This document shows positions 6,126 to 20,396 of a stretch of DNA of 20,396 nucleotides, in pieces. This DNA is from a virus. Numbering within the stretch: position 1 is the stretch's first letter; every line of letters starts with the position of its first letter. Position numbers and translations under genes: made by a program. The stretch lies in IMG/VR virus record IMGVR_UViG_3300042197_000701, positions 1-20,396 of that record. The stretch is one strand, 5' to 3'. The notes below the pieces were generated by a model. The model made no database searches. It was given only the letters and a program-made list of their open reading frames with translations, and was not told the DNA's origin.

Positions 6126-6863
6126 ATGAAACATATTTATTTTTTAACAAGCATGCCAAGGGCCGGTAATACTTTACTTGGTTCTATTTTAAATCAAAAT
6201 AAAAACATAAGTGTAACTTCAAATTCAATACTACCAGAAATAATATTTAAACTACATGAGTTAAAAAATTGTGAAATTTTTTGTAATTTTCCAGATGTTG
6301 CATCATTAAACAATGTTATTAAAAATGTATTTAATAACTATTATAAAGATTGGAAACATGATTATATTATAGATAGAAGTCCATGGGGAACTCCATTTAA
6401 TTTATCATATTTAAAATCAATAATAAAAAAACCAAAATTTGTTATACTTTATAGACCTGTATTAGAATGTCTTGCATCTTTTATTAAAATTGAAAAACCA
6501 ATTAATATTGAAAAAAGATGTGTAGATTTAATGGATATGAATGGAGCGATTGGAAAAAGTTTATGGAGTATAAACAATCTTATTAAAGAAAAAGAAGATT
6601 ATATTATAATACATTATAAAAATTTCATAAAAAATCCAAATAAAGAAATTAAAAAAATATTTAATTATTTAAAAATTCCTTTTAAAGATTTTAATTTAAA
6701 TAATTTAAAACAATTTTTATCTAATGGTGTTGGCTACGATGATAGTGTTATTAGTGGTCCTTTACACACCATAAGAACAGATAAGATACAATTAAACAAA
6801 TATAATATAGAAGATTACTTACCCAAGAACATTATTAAACAATACTCAAATTTAGATATATGA
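6126..6863 (+). CDS. PAPS-dependent sulfotransferase family protein, 245 aa
   Basis: The 5'-phosphosulfate-binding loop is SMPRAGNTLL (9-18). The 3'-phosphate-binding segment is FVILYRPVLECLASFIK (105-121), with R110 and S118 at the canonical eight-residue spacing. YIIIHYKNFIKNPNKEIKKIFNYL (159-182, shown here by its ends YIIIHYKNF and IFNYL) is the usual family segment after the catalytic core. The enzyme would move a sulfuryl group from PAPS to a hydroxyl or amine of a glycan, protein or small acceptor. It begins on the base after the upstream stop and ends in an ATGA overlap with an APS-kinase-like gene, so donor synthesis and transfer may be linked. The DNA is extremely AT-rich: 6601-6720 has 9 G/C in 120 bases, well below its neighbours, a hint of separate origin. 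Confidence 0.8.
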   Translation: MKHIYFLTSMPRAGNTLLGSILNQNKNISVTSNSILPEIIFKLHELKNCEIFCNFPDVASLNNVIKNVFNNYYKDWKHDYIIDRSPWGTPFNLSYLKSIIKKPKFVILYRPVLECLASFIKIEKPINIEKRCVDLMDMNGAIGKSLWSINNLIKEKEDYIIIHYKNFIKNPNKEIKKIFNYLKIPFKDFNLNNLKQFLSNGVGYDDSVISGPLHTIRTDKIQLNKYNIEDYLPKNIIKQYSNLDI

Positions 6864-7249
6864 GAATATTAATATTTGGATTACCAGGATCTGGTAAAAC
6901 TACATTTGCTAAAAAATTAGTTGAAGAAAAAAAGATACCTCACTTTAATGCTGATGATATTAGAAAGCTATTTGAAGATTGGGATTTTACAGATACTGGA
7001 AGAAGAAGACAGGCAAACAGAATGATGACGATGTGTGATCTTGCAGTTAATCATGTAGTTGTAGATTTTGTTTGTCCCTTTGAATCTTATAGATCTTTCT
7101 ATGATATGAAAATTTGGATGAATACTATTGATAAAGGAAGGTTTGAAGATACTAATAAAGTATTTGAAAAACCTAAAAAAGTAGATTTTGAAATAACTGA
7201 TTTTAACTACGATAACATAATAAAGGAGATACATGATAGACTACTCTAA
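6860..7249 (+). CDS. APS-kinase-like P-loop kinase, 129 aa
   Basis: Walker A is GLPGSGKTT (7-15). It is followed by FNADDIRKLFEDWDF (29-43) and GRRRQANRMMTMCDLAV (47-63), which parallel the DGDNxR...LGF and dR.eNixR.xxxA segments of adenylylsulfate kinase. CPFESYR (72-78) parallels SPFRADR. The end, VFEKPKKVDFEIT (101-113), matches the YExPxxPEixxxT close of the family. The piece between (WMNTIDKGRFEDTN, 87-99) replaces the usual lid and APS-binding stretch, and total length is well under the ~200 residues of CysC. So ATP-dependent phosphorylation is likely, but APS as substrate is uncertain. Phage proteins of this shape are often annotated adenylylsulfate kinase. It overlaps the sulfotransferase gene by four bases and the nucleotidyltransferase gene by 17. 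Confidence 0.65.
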   Translation: MRILIFGLPGSGKTTFAKKLVEEKKIPHFNADDIRKLFEDWDFTDTGRRRQANRMMTMCDLAVNHVVVDFVCPFESYRSFYDMKIWMNTIDKGRFEDTNKVFEKPKKVDFEITDFNYDNIIKEIHDRLL

Positions 7250-7586
7250 ACCAACAGCACAGATGTTAGGAAGATGGCAACCATTCCATGATGGTCATTT
7301 AGCTTTATTTAAAGAGATATTAAAAAAGACTGGCCAAGTCGTTATTATGGTTAGATCTATGCCACAAACAGAAAATAATCCTTTCCAATTTGATGATATT
7401 AAAAATCGTATTGAAAAAAAACTCAAAGATTACGTAGGAAAATTTGAAGTTATTAAAGTTCCAAATATTACTAACATATGTTATGGTAGGGATGTTGGAT
7501 ATAAGATAGAAGAGATTGTATTACCAAAAGAAATACAAGAAATATCCGCTACTAAAATTAGACAGAGTTTAAAAGAAAACCTTTAA
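7233..7586 (+). CDS. HxGH-motif nucleotidyltransferase, 117 aa
   Basis: The first motif, MLGRWQPFHDGHLALFK (11-27), is the T/HxGH nucleotide-binding loop (H19, H22) in the GRFQPFHxGH form of NMN-adenylyltransferase-like enzymes. ISATKIRQSL (104-113) is the second signature (ISxTxIR) that closes the active site in cytidylyl- and adenylyltransferases. At 117 aa it is TagD-sized, the minimal Rossmann domain. It would join a nucleotide to a phosphorylated acceptor and release pyrophosphate. NICYGRDVGYKIEEI (81-95) is the segment I associate with marine phage versions, usually labelled cytidylyltransferase. A strong AAGGAG at 7223-7228 sits inside the upstream kinase gene. It is too small and too different to be called ATP sulfurylase, although that enzyme shares the superfamily. 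Confidence 0.7.
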   Translation: MIDYSKPTAQMLGRWQPFHDGHLALFKEILKKTGQVVIMVRSMPQTENNPFQFDDIKNRIEKKLKDYVGKFEVIKVPNITNICYGRDVGYKIEEIVLPKEIQEISATKIRQSLKENL

Positions 7587-7625: not shown

Positions 7626-9809
7626 ATGCCTTTACAGAAAATACAATTTAAGCCAGGATTTAATAAACAACAAACTGCAACCGGAGCCGAAGGGCAATGG
7701 ATTGACGGTGATAATATAAGATTTAGGTATGGCGAACCACAAAAGATAGGGGGATTCCAGCAACTCGTTGCTAGCACCTTAGCAGGTCCAGCGCGTGACC
7801 AGCATACTTGGACAGCATTAGATGGTAAAAAATATGCAGCAATCGGTACTTCAAAATTATTAGTTATTTATTACGAAGGTTCTTTTTATGATATTACACC
7901 ACTTGGAACAGCTTTAACATCTTGCACCTATACATCTACAACAGGTTCTTCTACAGTTACAATTAATAAAGCAGCTCATGGATTAGAGGTTGGTGATTAT
8001 ATTATATTTACAAGTGTTACAACTCCAGGAGCACCTACTACAAGTTATACATCAGCAGATTTTACAACTAATACTTTTGAAGTTAAAACAGTTCCAACAT
8101 CTTCAACTTTTACAGTTACCATGCCATCTAATGAGTCAGGCACAGGTGTTACTGCAGGTGGAACTTTAACTACAACTCCATATATTTTTATAGGACCAAC
8201 ATTTCAAACTCCAGCATTTGGTTATGGTACAGGATATTGGGGCGGAACAATTCCAACTTCAGTTACAACTTTATTAAATGGAGCAATTGATAATGTTGTT
8301 ACAACAATTACTGTAGATGATACTTCAGCGTTTCCAACATCGGGTCGAATAGATATTGATACAGAATTAATTACTTATTCAGGTAAAACTGCAACTACTT
8401 TTACAGGTTGTGTTAGAGGTGCAAACGGATCTACCGCTGCATCACACTCTGATAATGCAGTAGTAACTAATGCAACAGATTGGGTTGATTGGGGAGAAGA
8501 ATCAAATACTGCAGGTGTAACCCTTGCACCCGGATCCTGGTCAATTGATAATTATGGACAGATTTTAGTTGCTACAGTTAAAAATGGTGGAACTTATACT
8601 TGGAACCCTTCTACTCCTGGAGCTACATCTGGTCCAATAAGAGCAACAATCGTATCAAATGCTCCAACAGCTTCAATTTGTTCTGTTGTATCAGATCGAG
8701 ATAGACATTTATTCTTAATGGGAACAGAAACTACAATTGGTGATCCATCAACTCAAGATCCAATGTTTATAAGATTCTCAAATCAAGAAGATATTAATAC
8801 TTGGAATCCAACAGTAACTAATACTGCAGGAACTTTTAGACTAGATACGGGAAACGAGATTATAGGAGCAATACAAGGTAAAGATTACATCTTTGTTTTA
8901 ACAGATCAGGCAGCATATACTATTCAATTTGTTGGCCCTCCATTTACATTCTCTGTTAGACAAGTTGGAACAAATTGTGGTTGTATTGGTCAACATGCAA
9001 TGGTGTTTGCACAAGGAGCAGTCTTCTGGATTGGATTTGGTGGTGGATTCTTTGCATTTGATGGAACGGTAAAACAATTACCATCACTTGTTGAAGACTT
9101 TGTATTTACAGATGTTGGAGATAATTTAGGAATTAACTATGATGCAAGTCAAATTACTTTTGCTTATCACAATTCATTATTTAATGAGGTTGGTTGGTTT
9201 TATGCAAAAGCAGGATCAAATCAATTAGATAGAAACGTTGTTTATAATTTTGTTGAAAATACTTGGGCCGTTGGATCTTTAACTAGAACAACTTATACCG
9301 ATGCAACAACTTTTGATTTACCTTATGCTACACAATATAATGCAACAGCCACACCAACTTTTCCAACTATTAATGGTGTAAGTAATTTAGCAGGTTCAAC
9401 TAAATACTGGGAACAAGAAACGGGAGTTAATGAAGTAGATGCAAATGGCAATGCAACAGCTATTGCTGCATATATTAAATCAGGAGATTACGATATATCA
9501 GAACAAGGTTTAGGTGGAGATGGTCAATTAATAATGCGTGTTAAACGATTTATTCCAGACTTCAAGAGCTTAGAAGGAAATGCAAAAATAACTTTATTCT
9601 TTAGAGATTATCCTGCAAACAGTGAATCTACACCTTCTACAACACCACCTTTAATTACAGGACCATTTACAATTACATCTTCAACTGATAAAGTGGATAC
9701 CAGAGTTAGAGGAAGACAAGTGAGTTTAAAAATTGAAAATGATGCATTGAATGAAACTTGGAGATACGGAACTCTAAGATTAGATATTGAAGCAGGAGGA
9801 AGAAGATAA
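7626..9809 (+). CDS. Large tail/virion protein (P22 gp10-like role possible), 727 aa
   Basis: The N-terminal motif MPLQKIQFKPGFNKQQT ... WIDGDNIRFRYGEPQKIGGF (1-45) opens a family of large marine-phage virion proteins. Residues about 100-180 contain an AHGLEVGDYIIF module. Residues about 213-281 contain a small immunoglobulin/beta insert with FPTSGRIDIDTELITYSG and FTGCVRGANGSTAASHS, seen repeatedly in phage tail proteins. The remainder (WSIDNYGQILVATV, RFSNQEDINTWNPT, GCIGQHAMVFAQGAVFWIG) resembles beta-propeller-like tail hub or nozzle proteins of the P22 gp10/phage-stabilisation type. That analogy is from pattern and genome position, not a demonstrated match. No enzymatic motif is visible. 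A Shine-Dalgarno is absent. The stop overlaps the next ATG by one base, after a GGAGG. Confidence 0.6.
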   Translation: MPLQKIQFKPGFNKQQTATGAEGQWIDGDNIRFRYGEPQKIGGFQQLVASTLAGPARDQHTWTALDGKKYAAIGTSKLLVIYYEGSFYDITPLGTALTSCTYTSTTGSSTVTINKAAHGLEVGDYIIFTSVTTPGAPTTSYTSADFTTNTFEVKTVPTSSTFTVTMPSNESGTGVTAGGTLTTTPYIFIGPTFQTPAFGYGTGYWGGTIPTSVTTLLNGAIDNVVTTITVDDTSAFPTSGRIDIDTELITYSGKTATTFTGCVRGANGSTAASHSDNAVVTNATDWVDWGEESNTAGVTLAPGSWSIDNYGQILVATVKNGGTYTWNPSTPGATSGPIRATIVSNAPTASICSVVSDRDRHLFLMGTETTIGDPSTQDPMFIRFSNQEDINTWNPTVTNTAGTFRLDTGNEIIGAIQGKDYIFVLTDQAAYTIQFVGPPFTFSVRQVGTNCGCIGQHAMVFAQGAVFWIGFGGGFFAFDGTVKQLPSLVEDFVFTDVGDNLGINYDASQITFAYHNSLFNEVGWFYAKAGSNQLDRNVVYNFVENTWAVGSLTRTTYTDATTFDLPYATQYNATATPTFPTINGVSNLAGSTKYWEQETGVNEVDANGNATAIAAYIKSGDYDISEQGLGGDGQLIMRVKRFIPDFKSLEGNAKITLFFRDYPANSESTPSTTPPLITGPFTITSSTDKVDTRVRGRQVSLKIENDALNETWRYGTLRLDIEAGGRR

Positions 9810-10336: not shown

Positions 10337-10517
10337 TATAACAAAGATAGAATGCCAGACAGAAGAAATAATTAAAAGTAAAAAAACTGGAAAGACATAT
10401 AAAACAATAGAAGACTTCTTAAAAGAAAATACTATGGAAGATCTTCAAAAAGATTTATCAGTTAAAATTACAAACAAAGGATTAGAACTACTACAGAAAG
10501 TAATGAATCAAAAATGA
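10329..10517 (+). CDS. Small conserved phage protein, 62 aa, unknown function
   Basis: The sequence is short and acidic/basic: IECQTEEIIKSKKTGKTYKT (8-27), then EDFLKEN and LQKDLSVKITNKGLELLQKV. The KSKKTGKxYKxxEE segment followed by EDxxKDxxVxI is a pattern I associate with small proteins next to cyanophage tail and glycosyltransferase genes. No metal ligands beyond a single Cys are visible, so it is not a complete zinc ribbon. AGGAG at 10321-10325 supports the start, and the stop overlaps the glycosyltransferase ATG (ATGA). Function unknown. Confidence 0.55.
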   Translation: MDNITKIECQTEEIIKSKKTGKTYKTIEDFLKENTMEDLQKDLSVKITNKGLELLQKVMNQK

Positions 10518-11449
10518 ATCCAAGAGGTGGTACAGAATTACAGGTAGAATTACTACATAAATATGCAGATAAAGATTTATTAGACAAGGTTCAAATAACT
10601 ACATCTGTCCCGGAAAAAATACCATTACATCCAACTAAACCAAATATACTTTGGCAACAAAATTCATATGACCAGGCAAATCTTGCGCCTTGGTTTCAAA
10701 ATAAAGATAATCATAAAAAGTATGATTGGTATGTATTTAACTCACATTGGTGTTATGAAAAGTTTAGAATGATGTTTAATATACCAACAGATAGATGTTT
10801 AGTTATTAAGAATGCAATAGATAAATTAGAGTCTAGAAAATTAGAGCATACTAAAGGAGATCCTGTTAAATTAATATATACTTCAACGCCGTGGCGAGGT
10901 TTAAATGTATTACTTGCTGCAATGCAACTTATTAAAAATACATCTGTTCATTTAGATGTTTATTCTTCAACTCAAGTTTATGGAGATCAATTTAAATCAG
11001 CTAACGATAAACAATTTGAAGGTTTATATGAACAAGCAAAAGCATTACATAATGTAAGTTATATTGGTTATAAACCTAATGAATTTATAAAAGATAATTT
11101 AAAAAATTATCATATGTTCGTTTATCCAAATATATGGGAAGAAACATCTTGTATTGCTGCAATAGAAGCTATGGCTGCAGGACTTTATTGTATTACAACT
11201 GATTATGGTGCTTTATTTGAAACAGGTTCAGAATACATTACTTATATACCTTACGAAAAAGATTTCATAAAACTAGCACATACATTTGCATCTGTAATAG
11301 ATGTAGCTGCAGATAGACTAGGGGATGATGGAGTAAAAGATCATTTAAAATCACAAATAGAATTTACAAATAGATTTTATTCTTGGGATTTAAGAAAAAA
11401 TATTTGGAATAGATTTTTACAAGGAGCAGTTGATGCAAGACGCAAGTAA
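10514..11449 (+). CDS. GT4-type glycosyltransferase, 311 aa
   Basis: The C-terminal Rossmann half carries the GT4 signature: KLIYTSTPWRGLNVLLAA (119-136), VSYIGYKPNEFI (181-192), then PNIWEETSCIAAIEAMAAG (205-223), in which E210 and E218 form the EX7E motif that binds the nucleotide-sugar. The N-terminal domain is short but keeps RGGTELQ (4-10), NILWQQNSYD and WYVFNSHWCYEKF. Retaining sugar transfer from a nucleotide-sugar donor in the cytoplasm is the expected activity. At 311 aa it is shorter than typical bacterial GT4 enzymes (about 370). It is joined by an ATGA overlap to the 62-aa gene and overlaps the second glycosyltransferase. Acceptor unknown: virion protein, host envelope or modified nucleotide are all possible. 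Confidence 0.8.
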   Translation: MNPRGGTELQVELLHKYADKDLLDKVQITTSVPEKIPLHPTKPNILWQQNSYDQANLAPWFQNKDNHKKYDWYVFNSHWCYEKFRMMFNIPTDRCLVIKNAIDKLESRKLEHTKGDPVKLIYTSTPWRGLNVLLAAMQLIKNTSVHLDVYSSTQVYGDQFKSANDKQFEGLYEQAKALHNVSYIGYKPNEFIKDNLKNYHMFVYPNIWEETSCIAAIEAMAAGLYCITTDYGALFETGSEYITYIPYEKDFIKLAHTFASVIDVAADRLGDDGVKDHLKSQIEFTNRFYSWDLRKNIWNRFLQGAVDARRK

Positions 11450-12299
11450 ACCAATATGGTTTAATAAACCAAATGATGTAAAGGTAGTTACAAAACAACC
11501 TGACATTAGAATCTATGTAGCAACTCCAGTGCATAGTGAATGTTCAATTCATTACACACAAGCTCTATTAAAATTTCAACAGTGTTGTATGATGAATGGA
11601 ATATTAGTTTCTTTTTCACTTCTTAAATCATCATTAGTTACACAAGGAAGAAATTTATGTGTAGCTAACTTTTTAGGTGATCCTGGTAATTATACACACA
11701 TGTTATTTATAGATTCTGATATTGATTTTAAATTTGATACAATAATAAAAATGTTAAAATTTGATAAAGAAGTAATAGCAACTCCTTATCCTATGAAACA
11801 TATACATTGGGAACAAATTTGGGAAAGATTACAAGCTGGTAAAATTAAAGATAAAGATGAATTAATGAGAGCTGGATTTATCTATCCAATAAAAATGGAT
11901 GGTATGGTAGATAACGTTAAAAAAGAAATAAGTGTTGTAGATGGTTTAATAGAAGTCTCGCACGCGCCCACGGGATGTATGTTAATTAAAAGACAAGTAT
12001 TTGATAAAATGATTAAAGCATATCCAGATGATTTTATTGATCAAGCTACAATTGTTAATGGAGAAGCTAAAACTAATCCTTATATGTACAATTTCTTTGA
12101 TACAGTTCATGATCCAAAAACTAGAAAATATTATGGTGAAGACTTTGGATTCTGTAAAAAATGGACTGCAATTGGTGGAAAATGTTATTGTTATATAGAT
12201 GATTTTATAACTCACGTCGGCGAATACCAATATAATGGTAGATTAAAAGACAATTTAGAATTTGTTAAAACCGTTGACGATTCACAGAAAAACAAGTAA
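11433..12299 (+). CDS. GT-A-fold glycosyltransferase with DxD motif, 288 aa
   Basis: DIRIYVATPVHS (24-35) is the donor-binding strand. THMLFIDSDIDF (88-99) holds the metal-binding DSD (94-96) after the usual hydrophobic strand. HAPTGCMLIKRQVFD and YYGEDFGFCKKW supply the later acceptor-side and base motifs of this phage/bacterial family. I start it at ATG 11433, six bases after AAGGAG (11421-11426). A TTG three bases earlier (11430) would leave only three bases of spacing. It overlaps the upstream GT4 gene by 17 bases, so the two are probably made together and may act in sequence. The donor and acceptor cannot be read from sequence. It ends the second gene block, before an intergenic promoter-like region. 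Confidence 0.75.
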   Translation: MQDASKPIWFNKPNDVKVVTKQPDIRIYVATPVHSECSIHYTQALLKFQQCCMMNGILVSFSLLKSSLVTQGRNLCVANFLGDPGNYTHMLFIDSDIDFKFDTIIKMLKFDKEVIATPYPMKHIHWEQIWERLQAGKIKDKDELMRAGFIYPIKMDGMVDNVKKEISVVDGLIEVSHAPTGCMLIKRQVFDKMIKAYPDDFIDQATIVNGEAKTNPYMYNFFDTVHDPKTRKYYGEDFGFCKKWTAIGGKCYCYIDDFITHVGEYQYNGRLKDNLEFVKTVDDSQKNK

Positions 12300-19728: not shown

Positions 19729-20301
19729 ATGAATAAAGTTTTAGTACACAAACATCTTATCATAAGAGCAGAAGCAAAAAATCCTCCAATGGATGTTGCT
19801 GTTCTTCGCAAATGGTTTCAAAAATTTATAAATGAAATCGGTATGAAAGTTATGATGGGTCCTTATATTAAATATTCTCATATGGTTGGTAATCGTGGAA
19901 TTACCGGAGCTGCAATCATAGAAACATCTCATATTGTAATGCATGTATGGGATGAGCCTGACCCCGCGTTGCTTCAGTTTGATGTTTACTCCTGCGGCGA
20001 ATTTGATCCTGAAACAATATGTAACAAAATTAAAAAAGATTTTAATACTACAAAAATAGAATACAAGTTTTTAGATAGAGAACATGACTTACAAGAAATA
20101 CATACATTAACATACACAGATCCGATAGTTAAAAATTATGAAAACAGAGAAATAGAGAAAAAAAATAATGCATTATTAAAAAGTAGAAAAGAAGTTGAAA
20201 TTAATGGTAGTGGTACACATGGATATAGAATCAAAGAAGGTATTCACAAAGGCACAGTTGTTGGCCATATTACAAGAGAAAAATCAGTACTTGAAAATTA
20301 A
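19729..20301 (+). CDS. speD: SpeD-family pyruvoyl-dependent decarboxylase, 190 aa
   Basis: SHIVMHVWDEPDPALLQFDV (67-86) followed by YSCGEFD matches the SHxxxHTWPE...DvFtCG core of bacterial S-adenosylmethionine decarboxylase. S67 is the expected self-cleavage serine that becomes the pyruvoyl group; H72 and C89 match the processing and proton-donor residues. Known members make decarboxylated AdoMet for spermidine synthesis, and some phage homologues decarboxylate ornithine or arginine instead. Oddities: the residue before the serine is Thr (ETSH) instead of the usual Glu or Lys, two residues are inserted between H72 and C89, and about 65 charged residues (126-190, with GTHGYRIKEG) extend the C-terminus beyond the usual ~120-130. 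No Shine-Dalgarno is seen. Confidence 0.75.
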   Translation: MNKVLVHKHLIIRAEAKNPPMDVAVLRKWFQKFINEIGMKVMMGPYIKYSHMVGNRGITGAAIIETSHIVMHVWDEPDPALLQFDVYSCGEFDPETICNKIKKDFNTTKIEYKFLDREHDLQEIHTLTYTDPIVKNYENREIEKKNNALLKSRKEVEINGSGTHGYRIKEGIHKGTVVGHITREKSVLEN

Positions 20302-20321
20302 TAAATAATCTTTATATATCT

Positions 20322-20381
20322 CCCAGACTGCATCATGTGGATGGGTCAATTAACTTGCTTAACAAAGGAGATAATTATGAC
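20322..20381 (+). promoter_or_regulatory. ROSE-like RNA thermometer leader
   Basis: Hairpin 1: CCCA (20322-20325) pairs with TGGG (20342-20345), topped by CTGCA/TGTGG (20328-20332 with 20336-20340). Hairpin 2 buries the ribosome site: GTC (20345-20347) pairs with GAC (20379-20381), AATTA (20348-20352) with TAATT (20372-20376), C20354 with G20370, and TTGCT (20355-20359) with AGGA (20366-20369), leaving loop TAACAA. In that last helix U-A, U-G, G·G, an unpaired C and U-A reproduce the UYGCU/AGGA arrangement of ROSE thermometers. SD AAGGAG (20365-20370) and the ATG are both inside the hairpin. The pairing is seen; thermal function is inferred. Confidence 0.6.
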
Positions 20382-20396
20382 AAACCTAGAAGTTTT
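20377..20396 (+). CDS. Start of a gene cut by the window edge
   Basis: ATG at 20377 follows AAGGAG (20365-20370) with six bases of spacing, the strongest ribosome site in the window. Only MTNLEV and two further bases are visible, so no family can be assigned from the protein. The ROSE-like leader suggests a small heat-shock protein (Hsp20), the classic gene behind ROSE elements and a common marine-phage accessory gene. That is a prediction to test, not an annotation. Confidence 0.55.

Follow-up and report, generated by a model that had tools for sequence, protein, structure and literature searches.

A predicted short ROSE-like RNA thermometer in the hsp20 leader of a pelagiphage-like virus

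Described ROSE-like elements and the phage leader

Small heat-shock proteins of phages have been known since 2013, and temperature-sensitive mRNA structure in a phage is familiar from the lambda cIII switch of lysogeny control, which differs from the phage hsp20 leader described here in structure class and gene and is not a ROSE element. The ibpA leader of Pseudomonas is a two-hairpin ROSE-like element in which the U(U/C)GCU motif, the G opposite the Shine-Dalgarno (SD) sequence and the G-C clamps were established experimentally with mutants and probing (PMC3669281). Heat melts hairpin II of this element while hairpin I remains closed, deletion of the G combined with a U-to-C change locks the switch off, and the Pseudomonas leaders bind ribosomes temperature-dependently in vitro (PMC3669281). 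In the crystal structure of the ROSE-like stem of Providencia stuartii oppF, a bulged G is flanked by U·G and C-G (PMC11342760).

The window analysed here is a whole viral record of 20,396 bases, and the leader lies at its 3' end between speD and the next ATG. The features of this region are as follows.

19729-20301, + strand: speD (PF02675, E 1.1e-16), the neighbour 5' of the leader, outside the switch
20290-20296, + strand: -35 element CTTGAAA, overlapping the 3' end of speD (TTGAAA in 98-100% of 53 distinct related segments)
20313-20318, + strand: -10 element TATATA, 16 nt past TTGAAA (TATATA/TATAAT type in 53/53 related phage segments)
20326-20347, + strand: hairpin I, GACU-(bulged G)-CAUC / GAUG-GGUC with loop AUGUG (pairing in 100% of cells, 44 distinct leaders)
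20348-20376, + strand: hairpin II, AAUUA/UAAUU outer helix and CUU(G)CU anti-SD against AAGGAG (98.8% of cells paired; minimum free energy fold at 4-37 °C)
20355-20359, + strand: UUGCU anti-SD, the ROSE U(U/C)GCU motif, with G20357 as the extra base facing the SD (no variation in 45 aligned leaders)
20365-20370, + strand: SD AAGGAG, 6 nt before the ATG (AGGAG invariant in 45 aligned leaders)
20377-20396, + strand: start of hsp20 (MTNLEV...), ending at the contig edge (19 contigs with the same 30-mer)

The gap from the speD end (20301) to the ATG (20377-20379) is 75 bases long. An earlier note on this DNA had proposed that it folds into two hairpins, and folding from the inferred transcription start confirmed this, with a minimum free energy (MFE) structure of exactly two hairpins from 4 to 37 °C. 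The ATG opens a frame that runs out of the window after MTNLEV, and the gene was identified by extending rightwards via relatives. The exact 30-base leader core TTAACTTGCTTAACAAAGGAGATAATTATG is also present in 19 other viral contigs, and in the complete copies among them the leader reads into a protein of 140-147 amino acids that begins with MTNLEVFNNL in most cases and is an Hsp20/alpha-crystallin protein (PF00011, E 4.7e-11). The gene that the leader immediately precedes is thus a small heat-shock gene, and the guess of an Hsp20-like chaperone was correct.

The details of the fold differ in part from those proposed in the earlier note. AAGGAG pairs with TTGCT in hairpin II as suggested; the start codon, said to be sequestered along with it, adjoins hairpin II but is unpaired (probability of being unpaired 0.98 at 4 °C). 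The UUGCU/AGGA helix is present in another register, the best being U-A, U·G, bulged G, C-G and U-A, with the G·G and unpaired C of the original description as an alternative. Of the two helices said to extend it, the 5-bp AATTA/TAATT helix is kept in related leaders, with a compensatory swap in 9 of them. The minor 3-bp GTC/GAC helix was discarded, since it lacks conservation (pairing in 56% of cells, a level not above that of shuffles) and competes with hairpin I. In silico, the hairpin closest to the start codon thus holds the SD, by way of a U(U/C)GCU motif that pairs with it imperfectly and has an extra G opposite, and the leader, whose two hairpins fall within the two to four of ROSE-like elements, includes a stable 5' hairpin.

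The phage leader and Pseudomonas ibpA share an arrangement of only two hairpins, the pairing of the SD with U(U/C)GCU, the G opposite the SD, the G-C clamps in hairpin II, a leader of ~60 nt, an unpaired AUG and a small heat-shock gene downstream. The phage element, known here from sequence and models, differs in being phage-borne, in the A/U-only outer helix beside the AUG and in a sigma-70-like promoter instead of a sigma-32 promoter. The UUGCU of Providencia stuartii oppF, with its bulged G, U·G wobble and C-G, has the register proposed for the phage leader, whereas it belongs to a bacterial ABC transporter gene.

The earlier note had called the element ROSE-type, and the Rfam covariance search did not bear out membership in a ROSE family: the window leader scored 11.7 bits against a threshold of 43 with ROSE_3 (RF02523) and 11.0 against 65 with ROSE_2 (RF01832), and gave no match to RF00435 at E<=10. 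ROSE_2 and ROSE_3, like the window leader, consist of a 5' hairpin and an SD hairpin, and the alignment spans the whole model. Some related phage leaders reach 22-34 bits with ROSE_3, below threshold, the leader of Melnitz-3 scoring 34.1. Because the Rfam scores are far below threshold, we label the element "ROSE-like, short type" by its features and not as a member of an Rfam family.

The temperature response was estimated with an energy model, whose nearest-neighbour energies are rough for bulged-G and G·G contexts; the modelled probability of an open SD rises from 0.0001 at 20 °C to 0.011 at 37 °C and 0.0285 at 42 °C. In the model of hairpin II alone, the A/U outer helix lowers SD opening by ~2,700-fold at 5 °C, and the modelled response between 5 and 45 °C is ~2e5-fold with this helix versus ~260-fold without it.

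Conservation among phages and SAR11 hosts

A search with the window-type Hsp20 gave 80 viral loci, the leaders of which were aligned; 44 distinct sequences were used for pairing counts and 45 for invariance. Across the 44 distinct leaders, 99.3% of cells in both hairpins are paired, and two-sided changes occur in 74 cells, whereas shuffles give 18.0 and sliding the partners gives 0 to 9. Compensatory changes are found at 6 of the 8 pairs of hairpin I with zero broken cells in the 44 leaders, such as GAC..GUC to GGU..ACC and, beside the bulged G, C-G to U-A. In hairpin II the outermost pair changes from A-U to U-A in 9 sequences, and 7 of the 11 pairs never vary. Since the UUGCU/AGGAG core is among the parts that never vary, covariation cannot test the SD/anti-SD core and supports hairpin I and the outer pair. 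The earlier note had named loss of the TTGCT/AGGA pairing in related phage leaders and a downstream gene unrelated to stress as observations that would speak against its proposal. Neither was seen: TTGCT/AGGA is present in all 44 leaders and the gene is Hsp20. Preservation of every outer helix, which it had also looked for, holds for AATTA/TAATT and fails for GTC/GAC.

Single-sequence folding of the 95-nt piece 20302-20396, which includes promoter DNA, gave an energy no better than shuffles (z = -0.25). The alternative MFE structure of this piece (AUAUCUCC:GGAGAU) was rejected because AUAUCUCC belongs to the promoter region and differs from one relative to another. RNAfold fails to return the conserved fold for several relatives and hosts.

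Of 183 distinct viral hsp20 leaders collected by protein-similarity searches, 181 have the architecture, a bulged-G 5' hairpin followed by UYGCU/AGGA; the descriptor was written after viewing the leaders of these groups, so that its sensitivity is not independent, while its specificity is. The three sets gave 55/55, 72/74 and 54/54 distinct leaders, and some IMG/VR contigs in the second may be bacterial. The alignment of 14 phage Hsp20s was too diverse as a query, and tighter alignments were used for the searches. Applied to 3,029 further starts in this viral DNA, the descriptor matched 13, all of which were hsp20 genes that had not been excluded, leaving 0 of ~3,016.

Among named or single-cell phage records, 12 of 16 hsp20 leaders have the bulged-G 5' hairpin and UYGCU...AGGA: HTVC008M, Mosig, HTVC115P, HTVC103P, Melnitz-3, AG-345-P14, P-RSM4, P-TIM68, S-SKS1, S-RSM4, S-T4 and C48C1. 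The leader of Agrobacterium phage Atu_ph07 carries a variant (UGGAG), and the motif is absent from the hsp20 leaders of two Vibrio phages and S-TIM5. The S-TIM5 leader (L111), which is without UYGCU, has CCACGCUUUUUCAAGGUGG, another possible SD-hiding hairpin before hsp20 and possibly a different type of thermometer. In Synechococcus phage S-T4 (L109, ~601-676), an upstream in-frame ATG follows the ROSE-like leader, and the annotated hsp20 start (676) is probably ~24 codons too late.

The SAR11 hosts have leaders of the same kind, with the architecture in 76 of 79 host hsp20 leaders. Like the phage leader, the SAR11 (Pelagibacterales) hsp20 leader has a bulged-G 5' hairpin, a CUUGCU...AAGGAG hairpin and CTTGAAA at the same spacing; it differs in a -10 that is mostly CCnATAT and in having no regular AAUUA/UAAUU outer helix, and it is itself predicted only. 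A covariance model, R1, was built solely from phage leaders of the window's family; no model was built from the MAFFT alignment of host leaders, in which the linker is misaligned. The R1 matches listed at E<=1, at host and phage loci, are on the coding strand and upstream of hsp20. Over 247 Pelagibacterales genomes, the best 20 matches of R1 all end ~8 nt before the tblastn match of the host Hsp20, as compared by eye.

Promoter and genomic surroundings

The TTGAAA-N16-TATATA promoter is conserved upstream of hairpin I with fixed spacing in 53/53 distinct related segments, a count of the segments in which the -35 was found, 7 leaders that were too short or had no -35 being left out. Transcription would start at approximately 20324-20326, at the base of hairpin I, giving a leader of ~52 nt. 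The SAR11 host hsp20 has an identical CTTGAAA -35 at the same spacing, but its -10 is mostly CCnATAT where the phage has TATATA. We take the host -10 to resemble that of a heat-shock-sigma (RpoH) promoter. The CTTGAAA...CCnATnT feature of the RpoH (sigma-32) regulon is not found in the phages, where the -35 is kept and the -10 is of the TATA type in 53/53 segments. In the host loci (L279-L358, ~1440-1500), the ROSE-like leader lies behind the CTTGAAA/CCnATAT promoter. The simplest reading is that the phage cassette came from a host-like hsp20 locus and that its -10 turned housekeeping-type while the RNA sensor was kept. Phage transcription seems to have been freed from the heat-shock sigma factor, with the translational thermometer retained.

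Among leaders of the cyanophage type, 31 of 61 carry TATAAATA instead, which we take to be the T4-like late promoter consensus. At three loci (L031, L052 and L070) and their relatives, the leader region from -95 to -65 holds a strong G/C hairpin, CCTCCCCCTTGAAAAAGGGGGAGG, with the -35 TTGAAA in its loop and a short run of T after it. In this one sub-group, CCTCCCCCTTGAAAAAGGGGGAGG is possibly an upstream terminator that overlaps the hsp20 promoter.

A SAR11 host is likely for the virus because its large structural protein (7626-9809) matches those of pelagiphages HTVC027P and HTVC023P, with ~58-60% identity. The idea that speD and the leader form one functional unit was dropped; the speD tail is upstream in only 19 of the 63 related leaders with enough upstream DNA. 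Elsewhere in the window, the stretch 6126-7586 encodes in succession a sulfotransferase (PF13469), a small kinase of the P-loop type that matches APS kinase weakly, and a small nucleotidyltransferase resembling CTP_transf, a possible cassette of phage sulfation or nucleotide-activation genes. A group 1 glycosyltransferase gene (PF00534) occupies 10514-11449 in this pelagiphage-like genome and is adjoined by a long uncharacterised ORF (11430-12299), which has no Pfam match.

Proposed switch, competing explanations and meaning

We propose, with a probability of roughly 0.8, that the phage makes its Hsp20 chaperone under the translational control of a short ROSE-like RNA thermometer of two hairpins. 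In this model, a sigma-70-like promoter overlapping the speD end would start the ~52-nt leader at the base of hairpin I, a predicted stable bulged-G stem. The SD would be hidden in hairpin II by the imperfect UUGCU anti-SD, with its extra G, U·G wobble and C-G clamps, and the all-A/U outer helix of hairpin II would adjoin the start codon. Ribosome binding would be blocked at low temperature, and warming would melt hairpin II so that Hsp20 is made, as judged from the characterised ROSE-like elements. The cassette would be homologous to the SAR11 host hsp20 leader, with the heat-shock-sigma -10 CCnATAT replaced by TATATA. Counting against a thermometer, sharp heat shocks are rarely met by marine phages.

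The retention of the leader in phages of thermally stable oceans would be accounted for if it were mainly a site of Hsp20 self-repression, at which free Hsp20 would bind its own leader and block translation until proteins aggregating during infection titrate it away and it is made on demand, with temperature secondary; we hold this view to be possible but tentative. An Arg corresponding to Arg93 of E. coli IbpA occurs in the Hsp20 of the window type and in 13 of the 14 phage Hsp20s that were aligned. Alpha-crystallin domains widely conserve this residue, which makes finding it weak evidence for self-repression. The precedent is that E. coli IbpA represses its own translation via the ibpA 5'UTR, for which Arg93 is essential (PMC10474464). 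On the other hand, in vitro ribosome binding by the equivalent Pseudomonas leaders depends on temperature (PMC3669281). Self-repression and a thermometer are not mutually exclusive, and self-repression is the main rival or an addition.

An mRNA can gain protection from a stem at its very 5' end, and hairpin I of Pseudomonas ibpA did not melt on heating (PMC3669281), which would fit a hairpin I that is a mere 5' stabiliser and a hairpin II that is an ordinary SD hairpin setting low, temperature-independent translation. This is unlikely in view of the UYGCU motif, which in each of the 44 leaders places an extra G across from the SD, the restriction of the motif to hsp20 (0 of ~3,016 other starts) and the experimental demonstration that equivalent leaders are thermometers (PMC3669281). 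Still less probable is an evolutionary relic, in which hsp20 was taken from the host together with a leader that was kept as a good ribosome binding site and not for regulation. Host hsp20 leaders do share the architecture, and the phage and host Hsp20s are ~40-45% identical over the matched part. However, a good SD does not need the UYGCU anti-SD, and within the phage family compensatory changes keep hairpin I and a coordinated A-U to U-A swap keeps the outer helix. The promoter also differs between phage and host, and therefore leader and promoter evolved separately. Chance occurrence of TTGCT close to AGGAG in an A/T-rich leader, with which the z of -0.25 for the raw 95-nt piece by RNAfold and the 11.7 bits in Rfam would agree, is refuted by the compensatory changes, the covariance-model matches on host hsp20 leaders and the 0 of ~3,016 other starts.

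As for the proposed thermometer, searches of the open-access literature, a scope outside which most subscription journals and all preprints fall, found nothing that describes a ROSE element or RNA thermometer for a phage hsp20, and two open papers on cyanophage small heat-shock proteins do not discuss an RNA thermometer. Two papers considered as earlier reports were set aside: the passages found in the Burkholderia phage AMP1 paper (PMC8917201) and in the Pelagibacter structured-RNA paper (PMC2704228) do not describe the element, and the latter paper makes no mention of heat-shock or hsp genes. The class of mechanism is known; what appears new is its carrier, its wide occurrence among marine phages and the exchange of the promoter.

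Because the same leader type precedes nearly all of the related phage hsp20 genes examined and the host hsp20, many marine phages appear to carry a predicted temperature-gated chaperone switch. A more speculative extension, which we put forward with some doubt, is that ROSE-like leaders are near-universal on hsp20 of marine SAR11, methylophile and cyanobacterial phages and act as dual sensors of temperature and of Hsp20 titration by aggregates. Such leaders would provide viral chaperone on demand in infection, and phage promoters, sigma-70-like or T4-like late (TATAAATA), would replace host heat-shock sigma control. If the element works as proposed, it would exemplify a regulatory cassette that exchanged its promoter and kept its RNA sensor. 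Many marine phages would then use translation to match the amount of chaperone they make to the temperature of the seawater, and the leader would offer a simple testable handle on the effect of warming on infection of the most abundant ocean bacteria.
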